In this document: positions 16,601 to 32,391 of the stretch, one piece after another
Position numbering within the stretch: position 1 is the stretch's first letter
Layout of the letters: every line of letters starts with the position of its first letter
Source of the DNA: Clostridiales bacterium
GTDB lineage: Bacteria > Bacillota > Clostridia > Saccharofermentanales > Saccharofermentanaceae
Assembly (NCBI GenBank): GCA_017550385.1
Contig: JAFZPJ010000028.1
Span: 1-39,614 of the forward strand
Direction: 5' to 3'
DNA length: 39,614 nt
Made by a program: the position numbers and the translations under genes
Notes under the pieces: generated by a model
Told to the model about the DNA's origin: nothing
Seen by the model: the letters and a program-made list of their open reading frames with translations, nothing else
Database searches by the model: none

Positions 16601-16607
16601 CAAGAAT

Positions 16608-16737: not shown

Positions 16738-17514
16738 ATGAAAGTAGTTCTTCTTGCAGGCGGCTTCGGCACCAGATTCGCCGAGCAGTCAGAGTATAAA
16801 CCCAAGCCGATGATAGAGATCGGCGGAATGCCCATCCTTTGGCACATAATGAAGGAATACTCCTACTACGGTTACAACGAATTCGTCATCTGTGCCGGCT
16901 ATAAGCAGCACGTTATCAAGGAGTGGTTTGCAGACTATTTCCTTCACACATCCGATATCACTTTTGATTTTGCCAACGACAATAAGATGATAGTCCACAA
17001 CAAGCGCGCCGAGCCCTGGAAGGTTACGGTCGTTGATACGGGACTTCACACGATGACAGGCGGAAGGATCAAGCGCATCCAGCCTTATGTCGGCAATGAG
17101 ACGTTCATGATGACATACGGCGACGGCGTCTGCGACGTTGACATCAACAAGCTCGTCGAGTTCCATAAGGAGCACGGCAAGATCGCGACCCTTACGGCAG
17201 TTACTATGAAGCAGGACAAGGGCGTTCTCGATATCGTAGGCAATACCGTACAGTCCTTCCGCGAGAAGAATGCGGTAGACGGCGCTCCCATCAACGCAGG
17301 CTACATGGTCTTCGAACCGGAAGTATTCGATTACATCGATGGTGATTCCACTGTATTCGAGAAGGAACCTCTCGAGAGGCTCGCTTCCGAAGGCCAGCTC
17401 ATGAGCTATATGCATGAGGGATTCTGGCAGTGCATGGACACACAGCGCGAGCAGACATTGCTCAACAAATATCTTGAGACGGGGCATGCTCCGTGGAAGA
17501 AGTGGGAAGACTGA
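16738..17514 (+). CDS. rfbF: Glucose-1-phosphate cytidylyltransferase
   Basis: RfbF joins CTP and glucose-1-phosphate to make CDP-glucose, the first step to CDP-3,6-dideoxyhexoses. The predicted 258 residues match the usual length of about 257. The nucleotide-binding opening LAGGFGTRFAEQSEYKPKPM, the metal-site block TYGDGVCDVDINKL and FWQCMDTQREQTLL are characteristic. The frame is open upstream to 16651, but the extra 29 residues are hydrophobic and unlike the family; ATG 16738, 12 bases after AGGGGG, is the proper start. It opens the glycan locus and is followed after 3 bases by rfbG. Confidence 0.95.
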   Translation: MKVVLLAGGFGTRFAEQSEYKPKPMIEIGGMPILWHIMKEYSYYGYNEFVICAGYKQHVIKEWFADYFLHTSDITFDFANDNKMIVHNKRAEPWKVTVVDTGLHTMTGGRIKRIQPYVGNETFMMTYGDGVCDVDINKLVEFHKEHGKIATLTAVTMKQDKGVLDIVGNTVQSFREKNAVDGAPINAGYMVFEPEVFDYIDGDSTVFEKEPLERLASEGQLMSYMHEGFWQCMDTQREQTLLNKYLETGHAPWKKWED

Positions 17515-17517
17515 TTC

Positions 17518-18600
17518 ATGAGAGATTTCAGCTGGTATAAGGGCAGAAAGGTTCTGCTCACAGGTCACACGGGCTTCAAGGGAACATGGCTTGCAAGGAT
17601 GCTCGTAAACAACGGCGCCATAGTCTGCGGTTACAGCCTTAAGCCCCCGACGGATCCCGCACTCTTTGACATGGCGGGTCTGGAAGGCAAGATGACGAGC
17701 GTCATCGGAGACATCCGCGATATGAAGCAGCTCGCCGAGACGGTGGTAAATTTCCAGCCGGAGATAGTGTTCCATCTCGCAGCACAGCCTATCGTAAGAG
17801 ATTCATACAAGGATCCGAGATACACATACGAGACGAACGTAATGGGCACGGTCAACCTCCTCGAGTGCATCCGCGAAGTGGATTCCGTTAAGAGCGTTCT
17901 TAACGTTACGACCGACAAGGTATATCTGAACGAAGAGCGTGAAGAGGGATACAGGGAAGACGAGATGCTGGACGGATACGATCCGTATTCGAATTCCAAG
18001 AGCTGCAGCGAGCTCGTTACCCACAGCTACAAGAGATCTTTCTTCGATCCGATGCTCGCGAGCGGCGAGAGATTCATCACGGTATCTACCGCACGTGCCG
18101 GCAACGTTATCGGCGGCGGCGATTTTGCAAATGACAGGATCATCCCCGACAGCGTAAGGGCTGCAGCGGCAGGCAAGAAGCTCGAAGTAAGGAACCCTTA
18201 TTCCGTAAGACCTTACCAGCATGTATTGGAGCCGCTCGCGATCTACATGACGATCGCCATGGAGCAGGAACTTGACCCGAAGTACCAGGGCTATTACAAT
18301 GTCGGTCCGGATGACTGTGACTGCGTTACCACAGGTGCGCTCGCTGATATGTTCTGCGAAGCATGGGGTGACGGATTTGCATGGGAGAACAAGTCTGAAG
18401 CGAATGCTCCTCACGAGGCGGGATTCTTAAGGCTCAACTGCGACAAGATCAAGGAGACCTTCGGATGGCAGCCCACATGGCACATCAAGGAAGGTATCGA
18501 GAAGACGGTAGAGTTCTCAAAGGTCTGGCTCGCAGGCGGTGATATCCCCGCAGAGATGGACAGGCAGATAAGCGAATATCTTAGTCAATTAAAGTTTTAA
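17518..18600 (+). CDS. rfbG: CDP-glucose 4,6-dehydratase
   Basis: RfbG converts CDP-glucose to CDP-4-keto-6-deoxyglucose with bound NAD. The 360-residue protein is an extended short-chain dehydrogenase: the Rossmann motif TGHTGFKGTWLA is near residues 15-26, FHLAAQPIVRDSYKDP follows, the catalytic threonine lies in NVTTDKVY, and the YxxxK pair is in YDPYSNSK. AGNVIGGGDFANDRIIPD and RPYQHVLEPL are typical of the CDP-glucose enzymes. It starts 3 bases after rfbF and precedes rfbH by 15 bases, as in known dideoxyhexose clusters. Confidence 0.95.
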   Translation: MRDFSWYKGRKVLLTGHTGFKGTWLARMLVNNGAIVCGYSLKPPTDPALFDMAGLEGKMTSVIGDIRDMKQLAETVVNFQPEIVFHLAAQPIVRDSYKDPRYTYETNVMGTVNLLECIREVDSVKSVLNVTTDKVYLNEEREEGYREDEMLDGYDPYSNSKSCSELVTHSYKRSFFDPMLASGERFITVSTARAGNVIGGGDFANDRIIPDSVRAAAAGKKLEVRNPYSVRPYQHVLEPLAIYMTIAMEQELDPKYQGYYNVGPDDCDCVTTGALADMFCEAWGDGFAWENKSEANAPHEAGFLRLNCDKIKETFGWQPTWHIKEGIEKTVEFSKVWLAGGDIPAEMDRQISEYLSQLKF

Positions 18601-18615
18601 GGAGACTTTTGTATT

Positions 18616-19959
18616 ATGGCAGAGTGGAAGAATGAAGCTGAAGCAAGAGAAGCGATCAAGGCTCTCGTAGCAGAGTACTATCACGACTTCAAGGAGAAGA
18701 AGGAGCCCTTCAAGGAAGGCGACAGGATCTCCTATGCATCCAGAGTGTTTGATGAGAAGGAGATGTGCTCCCTTACGGATGCAATGCTCGATTTCTGGCT
18801 TACAACGGGAAGATTCTCCGATGAGTTCGAGAAGAACTTCGCTGAATGGATCGGCGTTAAGTTCGCTCACCTCGTTAACTCCGGATCTTCTGCGAACCTC
18901 ATCGCTTTCATGGCTCTTACTGCACCCGAACTGGGCGACAGACAGATCCTTCCCGGAGACGAGATCATCACGGTAGCAGCAGGCTTCCCCACGACTGTTA
19001 CACCTGCCATCCAGTACGGCGCCGTACCGGTATTCGTAGACGTTACGATCCCTCAGTACAACATCGACGCTGATGCGCTCGAGGCAGCATATTCCGAGAA
19101 GTGCAAGGCCGTAATGATCGCGCACACTCTCGGCAATCCTTTCAACATCAAGGCCGTAAAGGAATTCTGCGAGAAGCATAACCTCTGGCTCGTTGAAGAT
19201 AACTGCGATGCACTCGGTTCACAGTACACGATCGACGGCGAGACCAGATTCACGGGCACATGGGGCGATATCGGAACATCTTCGTTCTATCCTCCGCACC
19301 ACATGACAATGGGTGAGGGCGGTGCCGTTTACACCAACAACCCGCTTCTCAACCGTATGATCCTGTCTTACCGTGACTGGGGTAGAGACTGCATCTGCCC
19401 TTCAGGCCATGACAACTTCTGCGGACACAGGTTCGACGGTGATTACGGTGAGCTTCCTCACGGATACGATCACAAGTATGTATACAGCCACTTCGGCTAC
19501 AACCTCAAGGTTACAGACCTTCAGGCGGCAGTAGGCGTCGAGCAGCTCAAGAAGTTCCCTTCCTTCATCGAGAGAAGAAGACACAACTGGGACAGACTCA
19601 AGGCAGCTCTCGCTCCCATCGCTGATCAGGTGATCCTTCCTGAGCCTGCAGAGGGCAGCCGTCCTTCATGGTTCGGTTTCCTCATCACGATACCCGAAGG
19701 TTCCAAGCATACACGTAATGAAGTAACAAAGTACATCGAGGACCACAACGTCCAGACGAGACTCCTGTTCTCCGGCAACCTTACAAGACATCCCTGCTTC
19801 GACCAGATAAGGGGCACTGACAAGTACCGCGTATCCGGTGAACTGAAGAACACGGATTACATCATGAACAACACATTCTGGGTAGGCGTTTATCCCGGAA
19901 TGACTGATGAGATGATCGACTATATGGCAAAGACTATAATCGAGGCGGTTAACGCATAA
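18616..19959 (+). CDS. rfbH: CDP-4-keto-6-deoxyglucose-3-dehydrase (E1)
   Basis: RfbH (E1; also DdhC or AscC) is a pyridoxamine-phosphate and [2Fe-2S] enzyme that removes the C-3 hydroxyl with a reductase partner. The protein (447 residues) has the aminotransferase fold, but the PLP lysine is replaced by histidine in SFYPPHHMTMGEGG (His228/His229), the hallmark of this family. A C-x-C-x7-C cluster is at Cys259, Cys261 and Cys269, with Cys197 (VEDNCDALG) as the likely fourth cluster ligand. AAGGAGA before the ATG is a good ribosome binding site. No E3 reductase (RfbI/DdhD-like, ferredoxin-flavin type) is in the window, so electrons must come from elsewhere. Confidence 0.95.
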   Translation: MAEWKNEAEAREAIKALVAEYYHDFKEKKEPFKEGDRISYASRVFDEKEMCSLTDAMLDFWLTTGRFSDEFEKNFAEWIGVKFAHLVNSGSSANLIAFMALTAPELGDRQILPGDEIITVAAGFPTTVTPAIQYGAVPVFVDVTIPQYNIDADALEAAYSEKCKAVMIAHTLGNPFNIKAVKEFCEKHNLWLVEDNCDALGSQYTIDGETRFTGTWGDIGTSSFYPPHHMTMGEGGAVYTNNPLLNRMILSYRDWGRDCICPSGHDNFCGHRFDGDYGELPHGYDHKYVYSHFGYNLKVTDLQAAVGVEQLKKFPSFIERRRHNWDRLKAALAPIADQVILPEPAEGSRPSWFGFLITIPEGSKHTRNEVTKYIEDHNVQTRLLFSGNLTRHPCFDQIRGTDKYRVSGELKNTDYIMNNTFWVGVYPGMTDEMIDYMAKTIIEAVNA

Positions 19960-20912
19960 TGAAAAAGATAAGTGTCATGATCCCCTGCTTCAACGAAGAA
20001 GAGAATGTCAGGGAGATAGCAGCGGCAGTTAAGGAAGTGATCGAGAGAGATCTGTCTAACTATGACTATGAGATCCTCTTCATCGACAATTGCTCAACGG
20101 ATGCGACAAGGGTCTATCTGCGCGAGATGTGCAAGAACGACAAGCACATCAGGGCTATCTTTAATGTAAGGAATTTCGGCCAGTTCAACTCTCCTTACTA
20201 CGGCATCCTTCAGACTACGGGTGACTGCACTGTTACCATGTGCTGCGATTTCCAGGATCCGCCGGAACTCATCCCCACATTCATTAAGAAGTGGGAAGAG
20301 GGCTACATGATCGTCAGTGCCATCAAGACCTCATCCAAAGAGAACCCTTTCATCTATTTCCTTAGATCCGTTTACTACAAGATGATGAAGAAGATGTCCG
20401 ACGTCGAGATGATCGAGCAGTTTACGGGCTTCGGTCTTTACGACAAGTCATTCGTACAGGTCCTCCGTGATCTGCACGATCCGATCCCGTTCATCAGAGG
20501 CGTTGTTGCCGAGCTCGGCTACAAGAGATGCGAAGTCGAGTACGAGCAGCCCAAGCGCCGCGCGGGCAAGACACACAACAACTGGTACACTCTCTACGAT
20601 GCCGCAATGCAGTCGATAACAACGTATACCAAGTTTGGTCTGAGACTCGGAGTATTCGGAGGTGCGGTCATCGCATTCTTCAGCTTCCTGATAGGTCTCA
20701 TCTATCTTGTTATGAAGCTCGTTGACTGGTACGGTTTCCAGGCAGGTCAGGCTCCTGTCGTCATCGGTATATTCTTCTTTGGCGGAGTCATCATGTTGTT
20801 CCTCGGTTTTATTGGCGAGTACATCATGAGCATGAACCAGCGTATCATGAACAGACCTCTTGTAATCGAGGAGGAGAGACTTAACTTCGATGAAGACGAA
20901 GCTGAAGCTTGA
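19959..20912 (+). CDS. GtrB/DPM1-like family 2 glycosyltransferase
   Basis: This 317-residue protein has a cytoplasmic GT2 domain and two C-terminal membrane spans (about 230-255 and 264-290), the layout of polyprenyl-phosphate sugar transferases such as GtrB. Motifs include MIPCFNEEENV (residues 7-17), FIDNCSTDAT, RNFGQFNSPYYG and the metal region CCDFQDPPELI (95-105). KRRAGKTHNNWY is the usual acceptor-side motif before the membrane spans. It would load a nucleotide sugar, possibly the dideoxyhexose made by this locus, onto undecaprenyl phosphate. The start overlaps the rfbH stop by one base. The next gene, a GT87-like transferase, could use that lipid-linked sugar outside the cell. Confidence 0.88.
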   Translation: MKKISVMIPCFNEEENVREIAAAVKEVIERDLSNYDYEILFIDNCSTDATRVYLREMCKNDKHIRAIFNVRNFGQFNSPYYGILQTTGDCTVTMCCDFQDPPELIPTFIKKWEEGYMIVSAIKTSSKENPFIYFLRSVYYKMMKKMSDVEMIEQFTGFGLYDKSFVQVLRDLHDPIPFIRGVVAELGYKRCEVEYEQPKRRAGKTHNNWYTLYDAAMQSITTYTKFGLRLGVFGGAVIAFFSFLIGLIYLVMKLVDWYGFQAGQAPVVIGIFFFGGVIMLFLGFIGEYIMSMNQRIMNRPLVIEEERLNFDEDEAEA

Positions 20913-22176
20913 AGAGAAGCTTAACAAAATAATGCCGGCAAAGCGTCTACAGCTTTTGTCGGCGTTTTTGATATTATTCTCGTTTGCGGTATTCATTATC
21001 TGGAGCCTTAAGGAACCGGGTTATAAGTTCGCGAACATATTCTTCTGGCGTCCGTTCGACAGAGCCGATACCTTCATGGACTTCTATAACAGCGTCTATG
21101 ACACCATGTACGGTCCGTACGAGCACGACGTTATCTACCCGCCTTTGTGCTGCCTGATATTCAAGTTTTTCGGGTCGCTCATACCGGGGACATCGTTCCT
21201 TAAGCCCTGGGCGGCCAGAGGAGGCTTCCGCATAAGAGGATATCAGGAGATCCAGTTTTCTCTGCTGTTGTTCTTCCTGTTCTTCATAATCCTTTTTATC
21301 GGAGCGATGCAAAAGCCTCTGTACAAGCGCGGCTACTTCGAGAAGATGGGCATAACGATGGCGATGATGCTGAGCACCCCGGTGCTTTTTGCGTTCGAGC
21401 GCGGCAACATCATCTTGTATTCGTTCGTGTTCCTTCTTCTGTATTTCATCTGCTACGATGACGAGCGCGAATGGCTCAGAGAGGTCGGATACATCTGTCT
21501 GGCGCTGTCGGCGGCGATCAAGCTGTATCCTGCGATATTCGGACTGCTGCTGATAAGGGATAAGAGGATCAAGGAAGCCGTCCGCACGATCATCTACGGA
21601 ATCGTCTTCACGGTGGGACCGTTCGTGTTCTTCGGAGGCATTAATGCGATAACGAGCATGCTCGGTGCCATCGGCAAGTTCAAGGCAACAGAGAACTACG
21701 GAATATCTTTCTCCAACGGCGTCAGCTTCATCCTTCTGGGTTCGACCGGCTATCACCGCTGGCTCACATTTGCGGGAATGGTGGCTGCTGCCTGCCTCAT
21801 CATCTCGTTCTTCCTGGCCGACAAGAAGCCGGAGAACAGATGGAAGCTGTCTGCTCTGTTGTCACTGTCGATGCTCGGCCTTGTCGAGAACTGCGGCAAG
21901 TACATGATAATCTTCGCGATAATCCCGTGGCTGTTCTTCTTCAAGGAAGACAGGAAGCTGAAGATTATAGATTATGTCTATGCTCTGATGCTGACCGTAA
22001 TGCTCGCGCCTTTCCCGGCAGGGATCTTCCACGAACTCAGGGAATACTACGACAGGAATACGATGATCATCTGCTGGACCGCGATAATAATGTCAGTAGT
22101 GCTAATGGCAGATATCCTGACAACGTTCATCAGGACTCACAAGAAGGAAAACAAAGCGGAGATATCAGCCTCTTAA
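20890..22176 (+). CDS. GT87/DUF2029-like integral membrane glycosyltransferase (first copy)
   Basis: The 428-residue protein has many membrane spans (about nine or more) and resembles GT-C glycosyltransferases of the GT87/DUF2029 type, which use polyprenyl-phosphate sugars. The conserved early acidic loop is RADTFMDFYNSVYD, followed by VIYPPLC, FERGNIILYSF and KLYPAIFGLLLIRDKR. A paralogue with the same motifs lies at 31120-32391. The start at 20890 overlaps the previous gene by 23 bases; ggaggag at 20869-20875 is 14 bases upstream, rather far, so a start at ATG 20932 is possible. The stop region overlaps the convergent minus-strand gene by 12 bases. Confidence 0.8.
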   Translation: MKTKLKLEEKLNKIMPAKRLQLLSAFLILFSFAVFIIWSLKEPGYKFANIFFWRPFDRADTFMDFYNSVYDTMYGPYEHDVIYPPLCCLIFKFFGSLIPGTSFLKPWAARGGFRIRGYQEIQFSLLLFFLFFIILFIGAMQKPLYKRGYFEKMGITMAMMLSTPVLFAFERGNIILYSFVFLLLYFICYDDEREWLREVGYICLALSAAIKLYPAIFGLLLIRDKRIKEAVRTIIYGIVFTVGPFVFFGGINAITSMLGAIGKFKATENYGISFSNGVSFILLGSTGYHRWLTFAGMVAAACLIISFFLADKKPENRWKLSALLSLSMLGLVENCGKYMIIFAIIPWLFFFKEDRKLKIIDYVYALMLTVMLAPFPAGIFHELREYYDRNTMIICWTAIIMSVVLMADILTTFIRTHKKENKAEISAS

Positions 22177-23076
22177 CCAGGCTACCGTATTAGCTATACC
22201 CGTCTCGAAATCAGTCTCAGGCACCCATCCCGTATCGCGGGTAAGGTCAGATATGTCTGCGCACAGATACATTACCTGCTTGTCGCCGTAAGGGATATCA
22301 CCAAGACCGAGTTCTGCGGAAGGATCGGCAGCATCTCTCATCATGAGGATGTAATCAGCCAGAGGCCTTGCAGTACCGCCGCCGAGCGGATAGACCGCAC
22401 CGTCCTTGCCCTTCTCACCGATGAGCTTGAACGCCTTGCCGGCATCTCCGGAATAAAGATAATCCCACTTCTGCTCACCCTTGGTAAACGAAGGTTTAAC
22501 GCCCTCTAAGAGCTTTCTTATGGTGGAAGTTACCATAGAAGCCTCACCGTCAAACGGGCCGTATACGCTTAATATCCTGGGCCAGACATGCTCCATTCCG
22601 AGCTGATGTGCGCGGATCCTGGTCATCTGTCCTGCGCATAGCTTTGCCATGCCGTAACCGTTCTCGGGGAAGGCGGGGGTATCAGGCTTGAGAGTGCCCT
22701 CGACCCTGCCGTATTCAGCCTGGGAGCCTGCACCGACGAATCTCTTGCAGCCGAACCTTGCTGCGCAATCCACAGCATCAAGGGCATACTTTACGTTCTG
22801 ATTCTGCAGGGGCATGTCGTTACGGGCATCACCTGTGGTACCGGCCCACGCGAAATGATAGAACACATCGTAATCCTTGCCGGTATCGTTCGTAAGACCT
22901 GCGAGGTCATCCAGAGAGCAATCCTTAAGTTCCACCAACGGACTTACCGGGATCCTGCCGATCCTCTTTGAACCCTTGTGGCAGAGTACGAGTACCTCGA
23001 CTCCGGCATTGATGAGCTCCCTGATCAGGGCCAGTCCTATGGCGCCGGTCGCACCGGTAAGCATTGCTCTTTTCAT
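22165..23076 (-). CDS. NAD-dependent sugar epimerase/reductase (extended SDR)
   Basis: The 303-residue protein has an N-terminal Rossmann motif, TGATGAIG (residues 7-14), and the catalytic YxxxK in NGYGMAK, as in CDP-abequose/paratose synthases and other nucleotide-sugar SDRs. GAGSQAEYGRVEG and WPRILSVYGPFD are typical of the group. In a pathway with RfbFGH it is a fitting candidate for reducing the 4-keto group or, as YerF does in yersiniose synthesis, a ketone on an added branch. An ATG at 23082 exists, but ATG 23076 has AGGAG at 23088-23084 at the better spacing. It is last in a four-gene minus-strand operon and overlaps the HAD gene's end closely. Confidence 0.85.
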   Translation of the reverse strand: MKRAMLTGATGAIGLALIRELINAGVEVLVLCHKGSKRIGRIPVSPLVELKDCSLDDLAGLTNDTGKDYDVFYHFAWAGTTGDARNDMPLQNQNVKYALDAVDCAARFGCKRFVGAGSQAEYGRVEGTLKPDTPAFPENGYGMAKLCAGQMTRIRAHQLGMEHVWPRILSVYGPFDGEASMVTSTIRKLLEGVKPSFTKGEQKWDYLYSGDAGKAFKLIGEKGKDGAVYPLGGGTARPLADYILMMRDAADPSAELGLGDIPYGDKQVMYLCADISDLTRDTGWVPETDFETGIANTVAWLRG

Positions 23077-23078
23077 TG

Positions 23079-23738
23079 TCATACTCCTGCGTAAGAAAGT
23101 ATCTCTTCGGGTGTGGAGACCATATATGAGGGGCCTGCACCTTCAAGTTCTTCGATGGATCCGAAGCCGTATGTGACTGCGAGCGAATCGATGCCGGCCT
23201 GCTTTGCTCCGTCAATATCGTTGCTCTTGTCGCCGATCATGAGGCACTCGCTCTTATCGAGATTATAGGTATCGAGGATATAGTTGATGACCTCGACCTT
23301 CTTGGATCTGGTGTTATCGAGGTTGCTTCCGATAACGGCTTCGAAGCAGTCCGTGATACCGAACTTCTCCACGATCTTCTCTGCGAAAGGTGTGGGCTTG
23401 GATGTCGCAACGAATATCCTTACGCCGGCATCTCTGAGCTTTCTTACGGTCTCGCAGAATCCGGGGTAGGGATTGCACTCCATGACTCCGGTCTTGGAAT
23501 AGTATTCGCGGTAGATCTTAACGGCTACGACAGCTTCGTCTTCTGTCATGCCGTAAGCCTTCATGAGAGATCCGGTGAGCGGAGGTCCCAGGAATGTGTG
23601 CATGACATCTTCAGGAAGTGCGGGTATGCCGATCTTCAACGCCATATATCTGAGACCGTTATAGATGCCTTCAGATGTATCTGCTATGGTGCCGTCCATA
23701 TCGAACAGCAGGCAGGAATAAGTCTTGTTATCACTCAT
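23079..23738 (-). CDS. HAD-family phosphatase
   Basis: This 219-residue protein is a subfamily IA HAD hydrolase similar in layout to phosphoglycolate phosphatase. The nucleophile motif is LFDMDGTIADT (residues 11-21), motif II is FVATSKPTP, and the acidic motif is MIGDKSNDIDGA. The cap region sits between motifs I and II. It overlaps the aldolase-like gene by 8 bases, so it is translated with it. The substrate is unknown. A sugar phosphate or phosphorylated intermediate of the glycan pathway is a reasonable guess, but repair phosphatases look the same, so the assignment stays general. Confidence 0.85.
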   Translation of the reverse strand: MSDNKTYSCLLFDMDGTIADTSEGIYNGLRYMALKIGIPALPEDVMHTFLGPPLTGSLMKAYGMTEDEAVVAVKIYREYYSKTGVMECNPYPGFCETVRKLRDAGVRIFVATSKPTPFAEKIVEKFGITDCFEAVIGSNLDNTRSKKVEVINYILDTYNLDKSECLMIGDKSNDIDGAKQAGIDSLAVTYGFGSIEELEGAGPSYMVSTPEEILSYAGV

Positions 23739-25344
23739 TGAAAAAACTCTCTGTAAGGAAGTTGATCTTCTGCTTGCCGTCTACGGAAGCCTTGTAGTCG
23801 GTGAACATATCCTTGATCTCTTCGTTGAGCTCATCCCACTTTCCGTCAGGATTGAGGGTAGGGAGTGACAGGTCAGCATAGCTCTCGTTGTATGAGGTCT
23901 TGAAGCCGTCGAATCCAGCAACATTGACTTCGGGAAGCTTGATCCTGCCGGTGAGTCTCAGAGCGAGGATCATGGCATTGTCGAAGTGCTCCCAGCCTCT
24001 CTTGATGACGCTGTTGAAGTTAATGACAGCAGCACCTTCGGAAGCTTCGGATGTGATGTTGGACAGAAGGATCTTGGCGATGCCGTCAAGCTTGTCACCA
24101 TATACCTCCTTCGCATATTCATAACGTACTGAATTGGTGAAGAAGAGGTAGTCGTAATCATACTTGTCGCAGTATGCGTTTACACCGATAACGACAGGGT
24201 CGTTCTCAGCGATGAACTGCTTGATCTTGGCTTCTTCCTCGATGATGGACTTGCCGGGAGCAAGAAGGAGGATCTTACGGTCAGCGAACTTGTTCTTGAG
24301 CTCTTCGATCGCTGCGGAATCGTCGACGATCCTTCCCTGGTTCTCAAGATACTTGTTCTCGAGCAGATCGTAATCGTAGTGTCTTCTCTCCTCTGTGCTG
24401 AGGGATGCGAAGATGTTCCTCATGTCACGGGAATTCGTGCGGTGATTCTTGAGGAGGTAAGCTACGTTGTTAACGTGTGTCTGATACATACCTGCGATGA
24501 AGTAAGGAGTGGAGTAACCCCATTCGAACTTCTCCTTGAACTCTTCCATGTACATGTCGATGGCATCGAGGACTGCGTTCATGTCGTAGTCGCCGTGCTC
24601 CTTCTGGTTCAGGTAGCTCGTGATGAGTTCTGTCGTGGTATTGCCTGCGCCGCGTCCCATTCCGCAGAGGCTCGCATCAACGATGCCGCCGCGTCCGAAC
24701 TTCTTCATGAGTTCGACGAACTTGATGGACAGAGCAAAAGACAGCTGCTGGTTGTTGTGAGAGTGGAATCCGAGCTTGATATCCTTGTCGACATAAGCGT
24801 CGAGAACAGTGGAGATCCTCTCCAGATCTTCGGGATACATAGCGCCGAAAGTATCAACGATGGATACAGCAACAGGCTTGAACTCATTGATGCACTGAGC
24901 GAGATCATAGAGATCTTCATTGCTGTAAGACAGAGTGTTAGCAGCCTGGAGATACACCTGGTATCCCTTCTCGCGGATCTTCTTACCGACTTCCATTCCT
25001 TCCTTGTGCTTTCCGTGAGGGAAGACAACGCGGATGGCGTCAATGGACTTGCCGTCATACTGAGGCAGTGCAGAAGTGTCATATCTGTCCCAGTCGATCA
25101 TAGCGACATATACTGCATCTTCCTGCTTGTCGATGAGATACTTCTCGAGGTCGGAAGGAACGTGGAAGTATGTTGTGCCTTCCGTATACTCCTTATCCTT
25201 GAGCCAGCCGCACTCGATGACTTCGATGTGTGCGTCCTGCATCTTCTTGATGATTCCCTTGATGGCAGCTGCGCCGAACTCGGAACCCGTGATGTAAGAT
25301 CCGTCGCGCAGTGTGCAGTCTAACAGTTCGATTAGTTTGGACAT
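23731..25344 (-). CDS. DRE-TIM aldolase-like domain fused to an unrecognised C-terminal domain
   Basis: The 537-residue protein has two parts. Residues 1 to about 300 are an HMGL-like TIM barrel of the DRE-TIM superfamily (HMG-CoA lyase, isopropylmalate synthase, 4-hydroxy-2-oxovalerate aldolase). The metal ligands are present: the DCTLRDGSY motif (9-17) with Arg13 and Asp14, and His194/His196 in GFHSHNN. The family signature GMGRGAGN is at 228-235. Residues about 355-490 form a second alpha/beta domain with LLLAPGKS (359-366), VVIGVNAYCDKYDYDYLFFTN and VAGFDGFKTSYNES. This may be related to MptE-like or Maf-like nucleotide-binding folds, but I am not sure. Its place beside a ThDP enzyme in a sugar locus suggests carbon-chain work on a nucleotide sugar. 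The ribosome binding site is gaagagg. Confidence 0.8.
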   Translation of the reverse strand: MSKLIELLDCTLRDGSYITGSEFGAAAIKGIIKKMQDAHIEVIECGWLKDKEYTEGTTYFHVPSDLEKYLIDKQEDAVYVAMIDWDRYDTSALPQYDGKSIDAIRVVFPHGKHKEGMEVGKKIREKGYQVYLQAANTLSYSNEDLYDLAQCINEFKPVAVSIVDTFGAMYPEDLERISTVLDAYVDKDIKLGFHSHNNQQLSFALSIKFVELMKKFGRGGIVDASLCGMGRGAGNTTTELITSYLNQKEHGDYDMNAVLDAIDMYMEEFKEKFEWGYSTPYFIAGMYQTHVNNVAYLLKNHRTNSRDMRNIFASLSTEERRHYDYDLLENKYLENQGRIVDDSAAIEELKNKFADRKILLLAPGKSIIEEEAKIKQFIAENDPVVIGVNAYCDKYDYDYLFFTNSVRYEYAKEVYGDKLDGIAKILLSNITSEASEGAAVINFNSVIKRGWEHFDNAMILALRLTGRIKLPEVNVAGFDGFKTSYNESYADLSLPTLNPDGKWDELNEEIKDMFTDYKASVDGKQKINFLTESFFNE

Positions 25345-25379
25345 GGTTAAAACCTCTTCCTTATATATTTTCCCTATCT

Positions 25380-25406
25380 ATTATAGCCCACAGGGGCAGG
25401 TCTTAA
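25380..25406 (-). promoter_or_regulatory. Weak candidate promoter before the aldolase-like gene
   Basis: On the minus strand TATAAT lies at 25385-25380, with TTAAGA at 25406-25401 only 15 bases upstream. It sits in the 58-base gap between the ThDP-enzyme gene and the aldolase gene. The -35 is poor, so this would be at most a secondary start inside the operon. Confidence 0.3.
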
Positions 25407-27202
25407 TTCTTCTCAAAGAGAGGAATGATCATATTCTCGTTGAACTCGTCCTCGGGGAGCGGCGGGTTCATGTATTCGAGAGGGAGTGACTCCATCTGAC
25501 CCTTGCTGTTCTTGTAAGATACCTGCTTCGGTCTTGCGGTAAGTCCGATCGGAGTGAATACCTCGCATACGACGGGACCTTCGGACTCGAGCACTTCGGA
25601 TACCTTATCCTTAAGCTCGGAGTTGTTGTTGATTGCAACGGTCTTGAAGCCGTATGCTCTTGCGATCGCTCCGATGTCAGGGATCGTGAGACCGGATTCG
25701 GGATCGCATGCGACGAAATGCTTGTTGAATATGTTCGTCTGTGTTGCCTTGATGGCGCCGTATCCCTTATTGCGGATGATGAACAGCTTGATGGGCAGGT
25801 TCAGTCTGTGGATGGTCTCGAGCTCCTGGATGTTCATTACGACTCCGCCGTCGCCCGTAACGCAGCAGGTCCTGGCGCCGTCAGCGGCAAGGCAAGCGCC
25901 GACTGTGGAGGGAAGCCCGTAACCCATCGAAGCAAGACGCTTTGTGCAGAATACTCTCTGGCCCTTCTTGACCTTGAATGCCTGCATGGAGATATCGATA
26001 CTCGATCCGGAGCTTCCGGATACATATACGTCGTCGGGCTGCATGAGATCCGAGATGGTATCGACGAGGCAGTATGTGTTGACGAAGTCCTTCTCCTGCC
26101 AGCAGTCCTCCGTGACCATCGGATACTTCTCCTTGAGTCTCTTGCTGTAATCGAGCCAAGCTGATCTGTCCTTCTTCTCGATGCGGTCCTGATACTTGAG
26201 CAGTGTCCTGATGAACTCTCCTGCATCGCCGCAGACCGGGATATCGGGACGGACGTTGATCTTCATGAGCTCGTTCGGGTCGATGTCGACGATGACCTTG
26301 AATGCTTCTCTTGCAAATCCGTCAAAGTTATAACCCGTCTGCAGAAGGTTCATGCCTGCGCCGATCGCCATGAACAGATCGGAGTTCTGCTGGATGAAGT
26401 TTGCATATCTGTGTCCGAGGCCGCCCGGTCTTCCGAAGTAGAGCGGATCGTTCTCGGGAACAAGATCAAGGCCGTTCCATGTCGTGAGGACCGGGATGCC
26501 GAGAGCCTGCTCGAGCTTTGCAAAATCCTCGATCGCTCCTGCGTGGCGGATGCCGCTGCCTGCAAGGATAACGGGACGCTCCGACTTGTTGATCTTCTCG
26601 ATTATCTGGAGGCAGAGCTTATCGAGGGATCTCGCGGGGGCCTCGAAAGGCTCATATCCTACGAGCTCGTCCTCTTCTACCATGGATGCCTGGACATCGA
26701 GCGGGATATCGATCCAGACAGGTCCCTTCCTGCCGTGGGTCGCTTCGTAGAGCGCACGCTCAACGTGATATCTGATGAGGTTCGGCTGATCTACGAGTGC
26801 GGCATACTTTGTGATGGGCTTTACTACCGATACGATATCGAGCTCCTGCATGCCCTGCTGTCTTAAGTGCTGGTCCCTGATCATGTCGAGTCTCTTGACC
26901 TGACCTGATACGACGAACATAGGTGTGGATTCCTGGAATGCACCTGCGATGCCCGTGATGGCATTCGTTCCGCCGGGACCTGTCGTTACCATGAGAAGTC
27001 CAAGACAGTTGTTGACTCTCGCATAAGCTTCTGCAGCGATCGCAGCGCCCATCTCCATCTGAGAGCAGACGAACTGTATCTTCTCGCTCTTGCCGAGCGA
27101 ATCGTTCAGATGCATCGCACCGCCGCCCGGGAGCATGAACATATGCTTTACGCCGGTCTCTTCAAGTCTTTTGATCACATAATCTGAAACTTTGATAAGC
27201 AT
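25403..27202 (-). CDS. Thiamine-diphosphate-dependent carboligase, acetolactate-synthase-like
   Basis: The 599-residue protein has the three-domain layout of the acetolactate synthase family. The cofactor-activating glutamate is Glu50 in CSQMEMGAAIAAEAYAR, the region TTGPGGTNAITG follows, and the ThDP/Mg motif starts at GDGG (450-453) and ends with Asn478 in RNKGYGA. No regulatory subunit gene (ilvN) or other branched-chain amino-acid gene is near; instead the gene opens a minus-strand operon in a dideoxysugar locus. YerE, the ThDP flavoenzyme of yersiniose synthesis, belongs to this family and adds a two-carbon unit from pyruvate to CDP-4-keto-3,6-dideoxyglucose, so a similar role is inferred. 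GAGG lies 7 bases before the ATG. Confidence 0.88.
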   Translation of the reverse strand: MLIKVSDYVIKRLEETGVKHMFMLPGGGAMHLNDSLGKSEKIQFVCSQMEMGAAIAAEAYARVNNCLGLLMVTTGPGGTNAITGIAGAFQESTPMFVVSGQVKRLDMIRDQHLRQQGMQELDIVSVVKPITKYAALVDQPNLIRYHVERALYEATHGRKGPVWIDIPLDVQASMVEEDELVGYEPFEAPARSLDKLCLQIIEKINKSERPVILAGSGIRHAGAIEDFAKLEQALGIPVLTTWNGLDLVPENDPLYFGRPGGLGHRYANFIQQNSDLFMAIGAGMNLLQTGYNFDGFAREAFKVIVDIDPNELMKINVRPDIPVCGDAGEFIRTLLKYQDRIEKKDRSAWLDYSKRLKEKYPMVTEDCWQEKDFVNTYCLVDTISDLMQPDDVYVSGSSGSSIDISMQAFKVKKGQRVFCTKRLASMGYGLPSTVGACLAADGARTCCVTGDGGVVMNIQELETIHRLNLPIKLFIIRNKGYGAIKATQTNIFNKHFVACDPESGLTIPDIGAIARAYGFKTVAINNNSELKDKVSEVLESEGPVVCEVFTPIGLTARPKQVSYKNSKGQMESLPLEYMNPPLPEDEFNENMIIPLFEKN

Positions 27203-27345: not shown

Positions 27346-28971
27346 ATGAATCTTATCGACAGACTTATCAGAGCGGTTATCAATCCATTTCTGAAACTGT
27401 TTCACAAAGAACTTACCGAGAAGCAGTGGGAATCATTGCTTCAGTTCATCAAGTTCTGTATGGTGGGCGTGACCAACACGGTCATCTCATACTGTCTCAA
27501 TGCCCTGACGCTGCTCCTGCTCGCACCGACTTCTCTCTCGCAACAGGCTTCCATCGGCACTTTCGTATTCTCGCCCGATGTCATGATCGGCATCGCCGTA
27601 TCATTCACCCTCAGCGTTCTCTGGTCCTTCTACTGGAACAACAGGCTCGTGTTCACGCTGAAGGACGGTCAGAAGAGGAACTGGTTTGCTGCTCTCATCA
27701 AGACATACTGCTCATATGCTTTTACAGGAATAATCCTGGCGGCAGTCCTCTCATGGCTGTGGGTAGACGTCCTGAACATCAACAAGTTCATCGCGCCCCT
27801 TCTTAACCTCGTGATCAGCATCCCCGTCAACTTCCTTCTCAACAAGCTCTGGGCATTCAGGAGCAAGGATGACAACGGCGGCGACAAGACCAAGAACGAA
27901 GTGGTAACAGAAGACCTCAACATTGATGCGGCCCTCTCGAGAACACCTGTTCCCGGTGAGCCTTTCATCAGCGTTACTTTCACTTGCTACAACTACGCCA
28001 GATATGCCAGAAGATCTCTCGATGCCATAAGGAGACAGAGGTTCAAGGACTATGAAGTAGTCATGTGCGATGACTGCTCCAGCGACGATACGGTAAAGGT
28101 CATCCGAGAGTACATGGAAGAGCACCCGGAGATGGACATCAAGCTCCTCGTAAACGAGCACAACATGGGTGTCTTCGAGACCAGGAACAGACTTCTCGAT
28201 GCAGCAAAGGGAAGATACATCCTTCTCTGCGATTCGGACGACTGGATGGATGACGACTGCCTCGAGGTACTCGCAGGCGCCGCGCTGAAGTCCGATGCCG
28301 ACAGGGTCATCGCCCAGTTCAGGGACGTCAACGAGGAAGGCAAGACCATACAGTATCAGGATCTTCCCGCCAACCCCTCGAAATGGATCTGCGGCGTCCA
28401 CCACGGAACCATGTACAGAAGGAGCATCTTCATCGACAACGGCATCAGGTTCAAGGAAGTATACCCTGATGATGTCTATATCAATGTCTTATACAACCAG
28501 TACTGCAAGAAGGTCGAGTTCGTTCACAAGACCATCTACAACTGGTTCGTACATACCGATTCCCAGTCGAGGAAACAGAAGAAGAATTCTCCCTGGCAGG
28601 GCCTGAGGCTCTTCGAGTCGTCATGCTCTTTCCTCGTACCGGTACTCGACAAGCTCAAGGAGAATAAGGATGAGGATGCGGCTATAGTCGAGCTCATGCT
28701 GATCAAGCTCTACACACTGTCTTTCTACTGCGCGTACGGAAGACCTTTTGCAGACTTCCTCAGAGAGTATGACAAGATCCGCAAGACGATGGAGAAGTAC
28801 GATCCCGACTTCAGGAAGAACAAGTTCCTCAAGTTAGGCGTGGATTCCCCGATGAGAGATTATGCTACCAAGATCGTAAGGATGACGGTCATATTGGAGA
28901 AGCTCCATCTTATCAAGCCTGCATTGATCGGATATAAGATCGTATCCAAGTTCCACTACTTTGACCTGTAA
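27346..28971 (+). CDS. GtrA-like membrane domain fused to a family 2 glycosyltransferase
   Basis: The 541-residue protein joins two domains usually encoded apart. Residues about 31-174 are a GtrA-like four-span membrane domain (FIKFCMVGVTNTVISY, SFYWNNRLVF, NFLLNKLWAF), the kind thought to flip undecaprenyl-phosphate sugars. Residues from about 207 are a cytoplasmic GT2 domain with ISVTFTCYNYARYARRSLDA, DDCSSDD and the metal motif DSDDW (296-300). No break between them is visible: the linker (about 175-205) is charged and in frame. The combination suggests that sugar transfer and membrane movement of the same lipid-linked intermediate are coupled. It opens a plus-strand operon with its own promoter; the next gene overlaps by one base. 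Confidence 0.88.
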   Translation: MNLIDRLIRAVINPFLKLFHKELTEKQWESLLQFIKFCMVGVTNTVISYCLNALTLLLLAPTSLSQQASIGTFVFSPDVMIGIAVSFTLSVLWSFYWNNRLVFTLKDGQKRNWFAALIKTYCSYAFTGIILAAVLSWLWVDVLNINKFIAPLLNLVISIPVNFLLNKLWAFRSKDDNGGDKTKNEVVTEDLNIDAALSRTPVPGEPFISVTFTCYNYARYARRSLDAIRRQRFKDYEVVMCDDCSSDDTVKVIREYMEEHPEMDIKLLVNEHNMGVFETRNRLLDAAKGRYILLCDSDDWMDDDCLEVLAGAALKSDADRVIAQFRDVNEEGKTIQYQDLPANPSKWICGVHHGTMYRRSIFIDNGIRFKEVYPDDVYINVLYNQYCKKVEFVHKTIYNWFVHTDSQSRKQKKNSPWQGLRLFESSCSFLVPVLDKLKENKDEDAAIVELMLIKLYTLSFYCAYGRPFADFLREYDKIRKTMEKYDPDFRKNKFLKLGVDSPMRDYATKIVRMTVILEKLHLIKPALIGYKIVSKFHYFDL

Positions 28972-29837
28972 TGAGCAACATCTACGGCGTAGTTACCCTC
29001 TATAATCCTGATATCGGCGAAGCGGCAAGAAACATCAACCGCTATCTTAACGATATCGGAAGACTTCTTATCTGGGCCAATTCCCCCATAGAAGATAAGG
29101 AGGCTTTGCTCGACCAGCTCTCAGACAGCAGCAAGGTCGAGTTCGTCCAGAGCGATAAGAACGCAGGCGTGGTCAAAGCTCTCAATGCCGCGCTCAGAAG
29201 AGCCCGCGCAGGAGGATATGAATACCTTCTGACGATGGATCAGGACAGCACATGGGATGACTTCAGATCTTATCTCGAGAAGGCGATGACGGTCCGCGCG
29301 AACGACGGCAGCGTCACGATAACCGGCCCGTATGCAGTGGAGACCGAAGAGGAAGCGCTCAGCGCTCCCGGCGGCGTCATGTATCTGGATTATGTAATAG
29401 TGTCCGGAGCACTCTTCGACATTACGATGTTCGATAAGACCGGCGATTTTTCCGAGGTATATTTTATCGATGCCGCAGACGAGGAATTCTGCCTGAGGGC
29501 ATCGACTTACGGTTTCAAGCACGCGGTCATCGGAGATTCGATGCTGGTGCACAGATTCGGCGAGAGGATAGAGCACAGATTCCTCGGTCTAAAGATAGTA
29601 ACTCACAATTATTCCGCATTAAGGTATTATTATTCTGTCAGGAATCATATCTGGCTCATAAGGTCCGGTTATTCGCCGGCCTCAAGGAGCTTCAGATTGT
29701 TCGGAAGATATGTGGTCAAGACCTTTATCAGAGCTTTATTCTTCGAGACTGACAGGAAGGATAAGGTGTCAGCCGTATTCCGCGGTATTAGGGACGGATA
29801 TTCGAACGAACACAGGAACGAGTGGAGAAGATGCTGA
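28971..29837 (+). CDS. Rhamnosyltransferase-like family 2 glycosyltransferase
   Basis: This 288-residue cytoplasmic GT2 protein resembles bacterial rhamnosyltransferases (RfbN/RfbF-type transferases). It starts with YGVVTLYNPDI and has WANSPIEDKE, NAGVVKALNAALRRAR and the metal motif LTMDQDS, then VSGALFDITMFDKTGDFSEV, YFIDAADEEFCLRA. The last residues of this type of transferase bind the membrane or acceptor. The donor sugar is not certain; rhamnose genes (rmlABCD) are absent in the window. The start overlaps the previous stop by one base and the flippase gene begins before this gene ends, so translation is probably coupled. Confidence 0.85.
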   Translation: MSNIYGVVTLYNPDIGEAARNINRYLNDIGRLLIWANSPIEDKEALLDQLSDSSKVEFVQSDKNAGVVKALNAALRRARAGGYEYLLTMDQDSTWDDFRSYLEKAMTVRANDGSVTITGPYAVETEEEALSAPGGVMYLDYVIVSGALFDITMFDKTGDFSEVYFIDAADEEFCLRASTYGFKHAVIGDSMLVHRFGERIEHRFLGLKIVTHNYSALRYYYSVRNHIWLIRSGYSPASRSFRLFGRYVVKTFIRALFFETDRKDKVSAVFRGIRDGYSNEHRNEWRRC

Positions 29838-31123
29838 GTAGATTTCTTATCGGTAAAGATACTGCGATAGCCAGAGACAGTTTTATCTACAATACTGCCA
29901 GCGGTCTTATCAATGCTGCCCAGTCTGTCCTGATCCTGATGGTTATCTCAAGAGTATTAGGCGACTACGATGCGGGCGTGTTCAACATCGCATGGGCTGT
30001 CGGCAATCTCTTCCTCAATGTGGGCAAATACGGAATGCGCGAGATGCAGGCAACTGACGTCGGACACAAGTATTCCTTCAAGACGTATCTTAATTCGAGG
30101 ATCATCTCCACGGCTGTCATGATGGCCGTCTCACTGGGTTACATATTCTATTCGGCCGTAACCATCGGCTACGAGACATCCAAGACGGTGATCATCATAC
30201 TGGTCTGCCTTCTCAAGGCGATCGATTCCGTAGAAGATATCTACCAGGGTCAGCAGCAGCTTAACGGCAGGCTCGATGTTGCCGGCAAATGCTACTCGAT
30301 AAGGCTTACGGTCACGATAATCGCTTATGTGGTTACGCTGTTCATCTGCAAGGATCTTCTTATCGCCACTGCCATCTCTCTGGCTATATCTGCCGTGGCT
30401 TCCATATACCTCCTGTTCCTGACTTCTTCTGTCGCGAAAGGTGCGCAGGAGCCGGGAGAGGGCGAGGGCGTCATGACGCTCTTTGCAGACTGCTTCAGAT
30501 TATTCCTTGCCACATTCCTGTCCTTCTACATGATCAATGCGCCCAAGTTCGCGATCGATGCACAGATGAGCTCTGAAGCACAGGCAGACTACGGTTATAT
30601 CGCGATGCCGGTATTCCTTATCGGCGTATTCGGACAGTTCATATACATGCCGATCATCAAGGGCATGGCTGACTCTTATGCAAAAGGCGACAGGAAAGCG
30701 TTCCACAAGGAGATGATCAAGCAGACCGTCTATCTTGTGATCCTTACGGTGCTCATCATGGCGGGAACGTATCTTCTCGGAATACCGCTCCTGTCACTGT
30801 TCTTCCATAAGGATCTTACGATGTATAAGACAGGACTTCTCATACTCATGGCGGGCGGAAGCCTTCTGGCGTACAGCAACTTTGCAAGGATAGTGCTCAC
30901 CATCATGCGCAGGCAGGGCTGGGTCATCGCAGCTTATGTCATAGGCACGATCTTCGAGTTCTGCCTTGCAGGCAAGTTCATCGAGAAGGACGGCATCTTC
31001 GGAGGCTGCACCATCTTCCTTTATTCGATGATGGTATTAACTGTTATAATTACTGCAGGAATGATAATCTGCTCGGCAAAGATGCCGAGTCCGAAGGATA
31101 TTGAACAGGATAAGAAGGCATGA
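29822..31123 (+). CDS. Wzx-type polysaccharide flippase (MOP superfamily)
   Basis: The 433-residue protein has about twelve membrane spans and the layout of oligosaccharide flippases of the polysaccharide transport family. It begins with FIYNTASGLINAAQSVLILM, typical of Wzx proteins, and has NVGKYGMREMQATD in the second segment. It should move the lipid-linked repeat unit across the membrane. GTG at 29822 gives the longest form; ATG 29831 is an alternative start because the ggag at 29824-29827 lies close before it. It overlaps the GT2 gene by 16 bases and the GT87-like gene by 4 (ATGA). No Wzy polymerase is clearly visible in the window. Confidence 0.85.
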   Translation: MEKMLSRFLIGKDTAIARDSFIYNTASGLINAAQSVLILMVISRVLGDYDAGVFNIAWAVGNLFLNVGKYGMREMQATDVGHKYSFKTYLNSRIISTAVMMAVSLGYIFYSAVTIGYETSKTVIIILVCLLKAIDSVEDIYQGQQQLNGRLDVAGKCYSIRLTVTIIAYVVTLFICKDLLIATAISLAISAVASIYLLFLTSSVAKGAQEPGEGEGVMTLFADCFRLFLATFLSFYMINAPKFAIDAQMSSEAQADYGYIAMPVFLIGVFGQFIYMPIIKGMADSYAKGDRKAFHKEMIKQTVYLVILTVLIMAGTYLLGIPLLSLFFHKDLTMYKTGLLILMAGGSLLAYSNFARIVLTIMRRQGWVIAAYVIGTIFEFCLAGKFIEKDGIFGGCTIFLYSMMVLTVIITAGMIICSAKMPSPKDIEQDKKA

Positions 31124-32391
31124 ACATCAAACCGGTCTTAGGCAATGACAAGCAGACAGGCATGAGACGCATCGCAGCAGCTGCTGTGGTACTGTCCTTT
31201 GTAAGCTTTGTCCTGGTCGCGATGTTCGACAGGGGATCTCTCATAGGTCAGCTCTTCTTCCGCGATATGACCGATACTTTCATGGATTATTTCAACTGCC
31301 TGCCCGGCGTTGCCATGAGGCGTCCTTACGATACGCAGAGCATGTATCCGCCGCTGTCGGAAGTCGTCTTCTACCTGTTCTCGAAGATCCTTCCCGATAC
31401 GATGCTTTTCGAGATGGCTCCGCGCGACATGAGAACGCAGCAGATCCCGATACTGTCCCTGATGCTGTATCTTGCGATTCCCATCGCAGTCACGGTGATC
31501 GCCCTGTCGGACTTCATCAAGACCGGCAAAGCGGAGAAGAGACTGGTGATAATCGCATTCCTTGTATCATCGCCGTTCATCTATCTTCTTGAGCGCGGTA
31601 ACGTTCTCATCTACAGCTTCGCGGCAGCAGTCATCTTCATCTGCTATTACGACAGCGACAAGAAGTGGCAGCGCGAGATGGCGCTCATCGCACTGGCGGT
31701 CAGTGCAGGCATCAAGCTCTACCCGGCGGTCCTCGGCATACTCCTCGTAAGGGACAAGCGCTGGAAAGAGACCGTAAGATGCGTTATATACGGAGTATTC
31801 TTCTTTATTGCACCGTTCTTCATGTTCGGCGGCCTGTCTAACCTGATGGTCATGATCAATGCCCTGATAGGCAACTCCGGCGGATTCGGACACACGGACT
31901 TCAACTGCAAGATCAATTTCTCTGCGATATTCAACATCATCGGAGTAATGTGGTTCGGAAGGACTGAGGCATTCACATGGGGACAGCCCGTGGCATACAT
32001 CCTCTCGGCACTTCTCATCGCAGCGGCTTTCATCACGCGAAAGAGATGGAAGAGCGTTCTGTTCCTGACACTCGTCATGATCGGCGCACCGGCATTCTCT
32101 TTCTACTACACGGGCGTGTTCATGCTCCTGCCGTTCCTCTGGTTCATCGCGGGCGGCGAGAAGGAGGTAAAGTGGACGGACATCATCTACCTGTTGGCGT
32201 TCATTGCCTTCCTGTCACCGATACCGATCCACGCATGGCCAATCTACGGTTCAGCCGACATCAACATCAACCTTGAGATCTGCGGCGTCGCCATCCTGGT
32301 AATGGTGCTCTGGGGCCTGATCGATGCAGGGCTGGATGCGTTAGCAAGGATCAGGGAGCGCAAGTCTCCCAAAGCCGAAGTCAAGGTCTGA
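31120..32391 (+). CDS. GT87/DUF2029-like integral membrane glycosyltransferase (second copy)
   Basis: The 423-residue protein is a paralogue of the one at 20890-22176. Shared features are DTFMDYFNC for the early acidic loop, MYPPLSE, LERGNVLIYSF, IKLYPAVLGILLVRDKRWKE and a following IYGVFFF span. About nine or ten membrane spans are visible. It would transfer sugars from a polyprenyl-phosphate donor on the outer face. It is last in the plus-strand operon. The 3' end, KSPKAEVKV, is basic and probably cytoplasmic. Only a weak, imperfect hairpin (aaggcataaagccctttt) separates it from the strong rpmH promoter. Confidence 0.8.
   Translation: MNIKPVLGNDKQTGMRRIAAAAVVLSFVSFVLVAMFDRGSLIGQLFFRDMTDTFMDYFNCLPGVAMRRPYDTQSMYPPLSEVVFYLFSKILPDTMLFEMAPRDMRTQQIPILSLMLYLAIPIAVTVIALSDFIKTGKAEKRLVIIAFLVSSPFIYLLERGNVLIYSFAAAVIFICYYDSDKKWQREMALIALAVSAGIKLYPAVLGILLVRDKRWKETVRCVIYGVFFFIAPFFMFGGLSNLMVMINALIGNSGGFGHTDFNCKINFSAIFNIIGVMWFGRTEAFTWGQPVAYILSALLIAAAFITRKRWKSVLFLTLVMIGAPAFSFYYTGVFMLLPFLWFIAGGEKEVKWTDIIYLLAFIAFLSPIPIHAWPIYGSADININLEICGVAILVMVLWGLIDAGLDALARIRERKSPKAEVKV

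Follow-up and report, generated by a model that had tools for sequence, protein, structure and literature searches.

A clostridial rfb locus that probably builds a 3,6-dideoxyhexose with a long branch at C4, using a donor supplied by a fused aldolase

The window considered here is the whole 39,614-nucleotide stretch of a Clostridiales bacterium (GenBank assembly GCA_017550385.1, contig JAFZPJ010000028.1, positions 1-39,614, forward strand), and it contains a sugar locus in which genes for a 3,6-dideoxyhexose linked to cytidine diphosphate (CDP) stand together with genes for a putative carboligase dependent on thiamine diphosphate (ThDP), a fused aldolase, a HAD phosphatase and a short-chain dehydrogenase/reductase (SDR). 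From our analysis it appears probable that this locus of a gut clostridium builds a surface sugar, a 3,6-dideoxyhexose with a long branch at C4, for which the aldolase supplies the donor of the ThDP enzyme. The genes concerned are the following.

16738..17514, plus strand: rfbF, glucose-1-phosphate cytidylyltransferase (TIGR02623, 369.8 bits, cut-off 300.25)
17518..18600, plus strand: rfbG, CDP-glucose 4,6-dehydratase (TIGR02622, 415.7 bits, cut-off 278.45)
18616..19959, plus strand: rfbH, C3-dehydratase of the E1 type with pyridoxal phosphate and iron-sulfur (NF011936, 707.1 bits, cut-off 423)
19959..20912, plus strand: GT2 glycosyltransferase of the polyprenyl-phosphate (ArnC/PgfS-like) type (NF047588, 172.1 bits, and NF007986, 120.5 bits, both below cut-off)
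20890..22176, plus strand: GT87 membrane glycosyltransferase (PF09594)
22165..23082, minus strand: extended SDR (PF01370; motifs GATGAIG and YGMAK)
23079..23738, minus strand: HAD phosphatase, phosphoglycolate-phosphatase-like (PF13419)
23731..25344, minus strand: fused aldolase (PF00682; DRE-TIM, HMGL-like, about residues 1-290, and MptE/SteA-like, about 330-537)
25403..27202, minus strand: putative YerE-like ThDP carboligase (JanthE, 8rph, 362.9 bits over residues 3-598)

The genes named here all form uninterrupted open frames. The open frame of rfbF starts at 16651 and the TIGR02623 model begins at residue 30 of this long frame, the start at 16738 being the likelier one. On the minus strand the SDR and HAD genes overlap by 4 bases, the HAD and aldolase genes by 8, and 58 bases separate the aldolase from the ThDP gene; by this layout the four form one operon. 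Scans for promoters (18 found, 17.4 expected) and terminators (11 found, 11.6 expected) gave results at the level of chance. The closest relative, G907, has an identical gene order (locus L197), and the ratios of nonsynonymous to synonymous substitution rates in comparison with it are 0.022 for the ThDP enzyme, 0.067 for the aldolase, 0.097 for the HAD protein and 0.050 for the SDR, every gene tested staying at or below 0.14; the genes are therefore under purifying selection. RfbF, RfbG and RfbH all exceed their NCBIfam equivalog cut-offs, and RfbH carries the PPHHM motif, whose His presumably stands at the position of the aminotransferase Lys, as well as Cys197, Cys259, Cys261 and Cys269, which we take to be marks of this enzyme type.

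The ThDP protein has three TPP_enzyme domains and stays below the cut-off of all 25 models listed of the 53 that it matched, the best being acetolactate synthase (362 against 538). Its best solved relative is JanthE, alike over the full length and used here in place of YerE, which is followed by a plant acetolactate synthase at 244.6 bits; JanthE is described in passages of PMC12188165 as YerE-like and as coupling ketones with 2-oxo acids. In a FastTree phylogeny of 59 rows, limited to frames of 480-680 amino acids, the window enzyme belongs to a group of 56 rows that includes JanthE and the enzymes linked to rfb genes, separated from three IlvB-like rows with a support of 0.938. The catalytic Glu (Glu50 in the window) is aligned in all 56 of these rows, and the ThDP motif reads GDG in 53 of them, including the window enzyme from residue 450, and CDG in three, as it does in JanthE. 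Hence the protein looks like a ketone-accepting carboligase of the YerE type and not like IlvB: the acetolactate-synthase-like counterpart of YerE seen by the earlier note holds, and the grouping with IlvB, named there beforehand as the outcome that would count against it, was not found. An IlvB-like acetolactate synthase was considered for this protein and rejected on the JanthE match, the tree placement and the models below cut-off; the window genome has its own IlvB-like protein, which scores 197 bits to the window ThDP protein. The viral contigs scanned gave no match to the latter, and plasmids gave none at E 1e-80. A shorter ThDP paralogue (frames of 559-576 amino acids, 315-350 bits to the window enzyme) occurs away from the aldolase in genomes of the order, namely G874, G876, G880, G881, G897, G910 and the G912 group.

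The aldolase is a fusion of the DRE-TIM type, as supposed earlier, with PF00682 in its N-terminal half followed by a C-terminal domain of about 200 amino acids. It carries LRDG at residue 12, HSHN at 194 and GMGRGAGN at 228, and LRDG and HSHN, invariant in 16 aligned members, provide the Arg-Asp pair and the HxH metal motif of DRE-TIM metallolyases. The best solved relative of the N-terminal half is 3dxi, a 'putative aldolase' (E 4.5e-25), and 4-hydroxy-2-oxovalerate aldolases come next. With the latter (TIGR03217, DmpG type) the window protein has in common the fold family and the LRDG and HxHN motifs; it differs from them in a score far below the equivalog cut-off (68.3 bits against 286), in a Tyr at the place of the presumed catalytic His and in the added C-terminal domain. 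Of 31 members, 25 gave a weak match of this domain to the SteA model and four to an MptE-like one, and its profile matches to solved structures are likewise weak (9hmz, SteA-like, E 0.023; 8sd5, 6-HMP pyrophosphokinase, E 0.78). The HAD phosphatase and the SDR, also recognised earlier, match PF13419 and PF01370, and in a single genome (locus L042) aldolase and HAD make one frame of 752 amino acids.

On a wider scale we counted these genes in 188 genomes of the window's order, which are related, the Fisher values of co-occurrence being therefore too small to be read as probabilities. The ThDP enzyme and the aldolase fusion occur together in 42 genomes, each alone in five and neither in 136; the ThDP enzyme and RfbH together in 43, alone in four and three respectively, neither in 138; the SDR at 50% identity or more is present in 42 genomes, 41 of them with the ThDP enzyme, which is without it in six, and 140 genomes have neither. 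Among the genomes with the ThDP enzyme only, G914 has an aldolase cut at two contig ends, in G949 the contig is 3.3 kb long, G913 is 69% complete and G876 has only the shorter paralogue (about 560 amino acids). The aldolase-only G036, G050 and G955 are far relatives of the window's genus. In genomes of the same genus the order rfbF-rfbG-rfbH-aldolase-HAD-ThDP-SDR-GT2 repeats on one strand, in some without HAD or with an extra gene. Among the aldolase loci of the wider sample described next, an ArnC-like GT2 at 55% identity or more was found in 24 of 48 ThDP loci versus 2 of 59 others.

The aldolase also lives in another genomic context. A scan of genomes with an aldolase alignment gave at least 566 relatives, of which the best 80 were kept, so that the sample leans to the window; with 30 loci from genus and phylum searches this made 110 loci (one record being present twice, as L038 and as L106), 107 of them with an aldolase frame of more than 300 amino acids. 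Of these 107, 49 have only a cytidylyltransferase of the kind that serves Kdo or Pse linked to cytidine monophosphate (CMP), 46 only a ThDP enzyme (30 of them together with rfb genes), two both and ten neither; G036 and G050 belong to the CMP context. Among representatives of the cytidylyltransferase there are matches to KdsB models, in one case over the TIGR00466 cut-off, and to PseF at scores below its cut-off, and the small phosphatase of the CMP loci matches KdsC over the subfamily cut-off and KDN-9-phosphatase below cut-off; a KdsC-like phosphatase is present in 24 of 59 non-ThDP loci versus none of the 48 ThDP loci. These later genes (KdsB- or PseF-like, KdsC-like) are those of ulosonate synthesis based on NeuB or KdsA, but unlike in the NeuB-based route, none of the 51 CMP loci has a NeuB-like frame (one NeuB query was used and KdsA was not searched for). 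Of the two loci with both contexts, L100 has a ThDP protein that is IlvB-like on the tree, and L104 stands as the sole exception to the split, a ThDP enzyme divided over two frames lying there with the aldolase and a KdsB-like gene at 4917-11623. In the unrooted aldolase tree (103 rows, frames below 480 amino acids and L106 left out) the ThDP-context rows fall in two clades, one of 31 rows (29 ThDP, two neither) and one of 19 (17 ThDP, two neither), which requires at least two changes between the ThDP and CMP contexts, in a direction that an unrooted tree does not give. Both contexts require a 2-oxo-3-deoxy-4-hydroxy acid, and the aldolase therefore most likely makes one from pyruvate and an aldehyde. 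A literature search that covered few subscription journals, and so leaves absence unproven, found no published link of such an aldolase with a cytidylyltransferase, and for YerE in combination with an aldolase it gave only a review and one further title.

Partners other than rfb genes exist for the ThDP-aldolase module, because some loci combine it with different sets. In L067, L070, L092, L038 and L060 its neighbours are a short SDR, an FGGY kinase and a cyclase related to AroB (TIGR04425-like), a set that might serve a carbocyclic branch or sugar; in L034, L037, L073, L083, L085 and L212, which have no window-type RfbFGH at 45% identity or more, it stands with a split transketolase and, in most, with a LuxC/LuxE-like protein or an AMP-ligase. 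A search of plasmids with the aldolase gave 29 records, and no single place in any of them matches 80% of the protein. Three of the four that were examined have a catabolic-looking locus in Priestia, the aldolase with an annotated KDO cytidylyltransferase and HAD in Leisingera and an unannotated stretch in Streptomyces. The fourth, a Desulfobaculum plasmid (L146, 4846-9014), has RfbH, a split transketolase and an aldolase-like protein, and G908 (L214, 209-6113) has RfbH with a split transketolase; perhaps in these a transketolase-type branch is set on the same precursor as in the window.

A parallel comes from Gammaproteobacteria, where a YerE-like enzyme was found in nine of 369 genomes. In two of these loci, L163 and L165, the YerE-like enzyme is accompanied by rfbFGH and by a 4-hydroxy-2-oxovalerate aldolase that passes the equivalog cut-off (386.2 and 388.5 bits against 286), which supports the aldolase as maker of a 4-hydroxy-2-oxo acid donor. 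Among the other seven, L083 has a fused aldolase, five have no aldolase in the stretch taken and one is a 5-kb contig.

Exchange of the branch genes is seen in G006 (locus L044). Its flanks are identical in DNA to those of the window to 91% (12480-16222), 91% (rfbFGH, 16564-19947) and 93% (rnpA side, 32369-33788), and its GT2 protein to 94%, whereas the aldolase, ThDP enzyme, HAD and SDR are only 32%, 41%, 35% and 53% identical; the cassette of G006 follows rfbH and precedes GT2, all on one strand, and that of the window is inverted after the GT87 gene. With like flanks and unlike cassettes, one chromosomal site therefore carries two different branch cassettes, which is what a surface sugar that varies would lead one to expect.

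Taking this together, we propose a route whose reactions, substrates and order we infer from gene content. RfbF, RfbG and RfbH would make CDP-4-keto-3,6-dideoxyhexose, with the electron donor of RfbH coming from outside the locus; the aldolase would join pyruvate to an aldehyde to give R-CHOH-CH2-CO-COOH, and the HAD enzyme would strip phosphate from this acid or from its aldehyde precursor. The YerE-like enzyme would then decarboxylate the acid and add R-CHOH-CH2-CO- to the C4 ketone, which would yield a tertiary alcohol, and the SDR would reduce the side-chain ketone to a 1,3-dihydroxyalkyl branch. The ArnC-like GT2 would move the sugar from CDP to a lipid carrier and, with the GT87 proteins, pass it to the cell surface. 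The predicted product is a 3,6-dideoxy-4-C-(1,3-dihydroxyalkyl)hexose, since aldol addition, carboligation and reduction would together leave the pattern CHOH-CH2-CHOH, as in caryophyllose.

It would be logical to compare this route with known branched sugars. Yersiniose A of Yersinia pseudotuberculosis (YerE/YerF) resembles it in the RfbFGH-type precursor, the ThDP carboligase and the reductase, and to our knowledge its pathway has no aldolase. It also differs, according to passages of PMC12247030, in a pyruvate donor and a two-carbon branch. Those passages report that the ThDP enzymes of erwiniose and caryophyllose favour 4-hydroxy-2-oxo acids over pyruvate, and that ErwE of Pectobacterium atrosepticum (erwiniose) refuses pyruvate; ErwE is a YerE-like enzyme whose acceptor is CDP-4-keto-3,6-dideoxyglucose and whose donor is a hydroxylated 2-oxo acid, as proposed for the window. 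The window has a HAD protein and a fused aldolase that belongs to another family, the two pathways being compared by description only. Caryophyllose (MMAR_2332, Mycobacterium marinum), whose branch is a 1,3,4,5-tetrahydroxyhexyl group (passages of PMC5706390), is a 3,6-dideoxyhexose branched at C4 with the same CHOH-CH2-CHOH unit as our predicted product (PMC12247030, PMC5706390). It differs in belonging to a mycobacterial lipooligosaccharide, and the passages of these two papers name no aldolase for it, this comparison too being by description only; passages of PMC13354803, PMC4703794 and PMC4403928 contain no caryophyllose enzyme names. The carboligase and reductase pair that the earlier note likened to yersiniose is thus present, but the likeness to erwiniose and caryophyllose, with enzymes preferring 4-hydroxy-2-oxo acids, is the more apt and the better supported one. 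The branched, carbon-extended 3,6-dideoxysugar pathway that the note inferred is itself supported by the grouping with JanthE and the pairing of ThDP enzyme and aldolase in the order.

The nearest alternative is that the ThDP enzyme adds an acetyl group from pyruvate, as for yersiniose (the YerE reaction of PMC12247030), which the SDR reduces, and that aldolase and HAD belong to the synthesis of a different sugar. Yersiniose indeed requires no parts beyond RfbFGH, a YerE-like enzyme and an SDR, and the five of nine gammaproteobacterial loci with no aldolase in the stretch taken speak the same way. We consider it unlikely all the same, because the near-constant presence of the aldolase beside the ThDP enzyme (42 of the 188 genomes, with five exceptions on each side) argues against a pyruvate donor; the aldolase gene is the immediate neighbour of the ThDP gene within the operon, and pairing with a ThDP enzyme is seen in each of two dissimilar aldolase clades. 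Class II aldolases are reversible, and beyond this nothing specific favours the view that the nucleotide sugar itself is the substrate of the aldolase or that this enzyme works as a lyase that removes a keto acid. We hold this very improbable, as the fusion recurs in the 49 sampled loci with a cytidylyltransferase and no rfb gene; of the three roles that the earlier note had left to the aldolase, supplying the keto acid is best supported, and removing it or acting on the sugar fit poorly with a fusion that recurs without CDP-dideoxysugar genes.

A number of observations have to be set on the other side of the balance from the proposed donor supply and carboligation. The window aldolase reads LRDGSY, with Tyr where canonical enzymes have, after LRDG-x, a His that is presumably catalytic, and the gammaproteobacterial aldolases over the TIGR03217 cut-off (L163, L165) read LRDGNH. 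The ThDP enzyme shares no more than 33% identity with JanthE versus 28% and 31% with two IlvB-like proteins, and of eight JanthE active-site residues it keeps two, Y297 and K567 (window Y291 and K559), V121, Y268, P293, H494, S498 and F564 being M, L, L, A, N and A. HAD-like frames occur in 17 of 48 ThDP loci, and a dephosphorylation step is therefore not general. No RfbI (E3) reductase is found in the locus, and the window genome, 85% complete, gave a single FAD_binding_6 match, in a frame of 260 amino acids, and no RfbI; RfbFGH alone may thus not complete the C3 step, which qualifies the sufficiency, though not the clear identity, that the earlier note ascribed to the three proteins, and another electron donor may serve RfbH. 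In G868, which is 99% complete and a true exception, the genes for the ThDP enzyme and RfbFGH stand side by side and the aldolase is absent. Next to them (L209, 11022-14592) lie a synthase of the NeuB family and a fusion of PseF with PseG; NeuB also makes a 2-oxo-3-deoxy acid, which may feed the ThDP enzyme or go into a separate nonulosonic acid.

On the same side of the balance, 16 of the 46 ThDP-only aldolase loci have no rfb gene at 45% identity or more, some having AroB-like or transketolase genes instead, and in G001, G017, G022, G887, G898 and G905 the SDR is apart from the ThDP enzyme or without it, mostly beside RfbH. In the first five of these genomes the ThDP-aldolase and RfbH-SDR sets are at least 50 kb apart or on different contigs. 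Both points would favour a free or phosphorylated ketose, or a unit derived from an ulosonate, made by aldolase, HAD and ThDP enzyme and never joined to the CDP-dideoxysugar, so that only the polysaccharide is shared. This we regard as quite improbable, since both sets are still present in the five genomes and the ThDP enzyme keeps company with RfbH (43 of 188, four and three alone), contig ends truncate several of the 16 loci, and the ThDP enzyme groups with a ketone-accepting one. A distant SDR (35-38%) also lies beside RfbH in two genomes without ThDP enzyme and aldolase, G911 (rfbFGH, SDR, RmlC-like) and G908 (rfbFGH, split transketolase, SDR); an ordinary ketone reductase in these genomes and a side-chain reductase in the window would fit such a distribution.

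We may even suggest, tentatively and as a possibility rather than an expectation, that the fused aldolase serves quite generally to make 3-deoxy-2-ulosonic acids from pyruvate in bacteria where NeuB is not at the locus, and that it was twice recruited by a ThDP carboligase, which would decarboxylate the ulosonic-acid-like chain and set it on a dideoxyhexose to yield a 'double sugar' of at least ten carbons linked C-C, with the MptE/SteA-like domain as a catalytic or substrate-handling part of the same step. The carboligation of the YerE type onto CDP-4-keto-3,6-dideoxyhexose appears to be of a known kind, the window being a variation on a rare known pathway; what is new is that a family of fused aldolases takes part, that this family is linked to the ThDP enzyme twice, separately, and that cassettes are exchanged at a single site of the chromosome. 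If the proposed route is true, it gives a gene rule for long-branched surface sugars of gut clostridia, in which the aldolase/HAD/ThDP cassette sets the branch and relatives swap this cassette and keep the rest of the locus; the fused aldolases would be an unrecognised route to ulosonic acids, and matched aldolase-carboligase pairs could be used for making chiral tertiary alcohols.

The sugar locus continues with four further genes.

27346..28971, plus strand: GtrA-like membrane domain fused to a GT2 domain (PF04138, PF00535)
28971..29837, plus strand: rhamnosyltransferase-like GT2 (TIGR01556, 121.4 bits, below the cut-off of 200.55)
29822..31123, plus strand: membrane protein, probably a polysaccharide flippase (no family match; hydrophobic sequence only)
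31120..32391, plus strand: second GT87 membrane glycosyltransferase (PF09594)

Just after them come rnpA, yidC, jag, mnmE, mnmG and rsmG. Directly before the rfb genes, at 14424-16222, lies a split transketolase, probably a housekeeping one and not part of the cassette because it is conserved in L044 (96-98%) and in L053 and L054 (72-73%). Farther upstream, at 634-3645, the window encodes a protein of 1003 amino acids with a GH94 domain (cellobiose phosphorylase-like superfamily).

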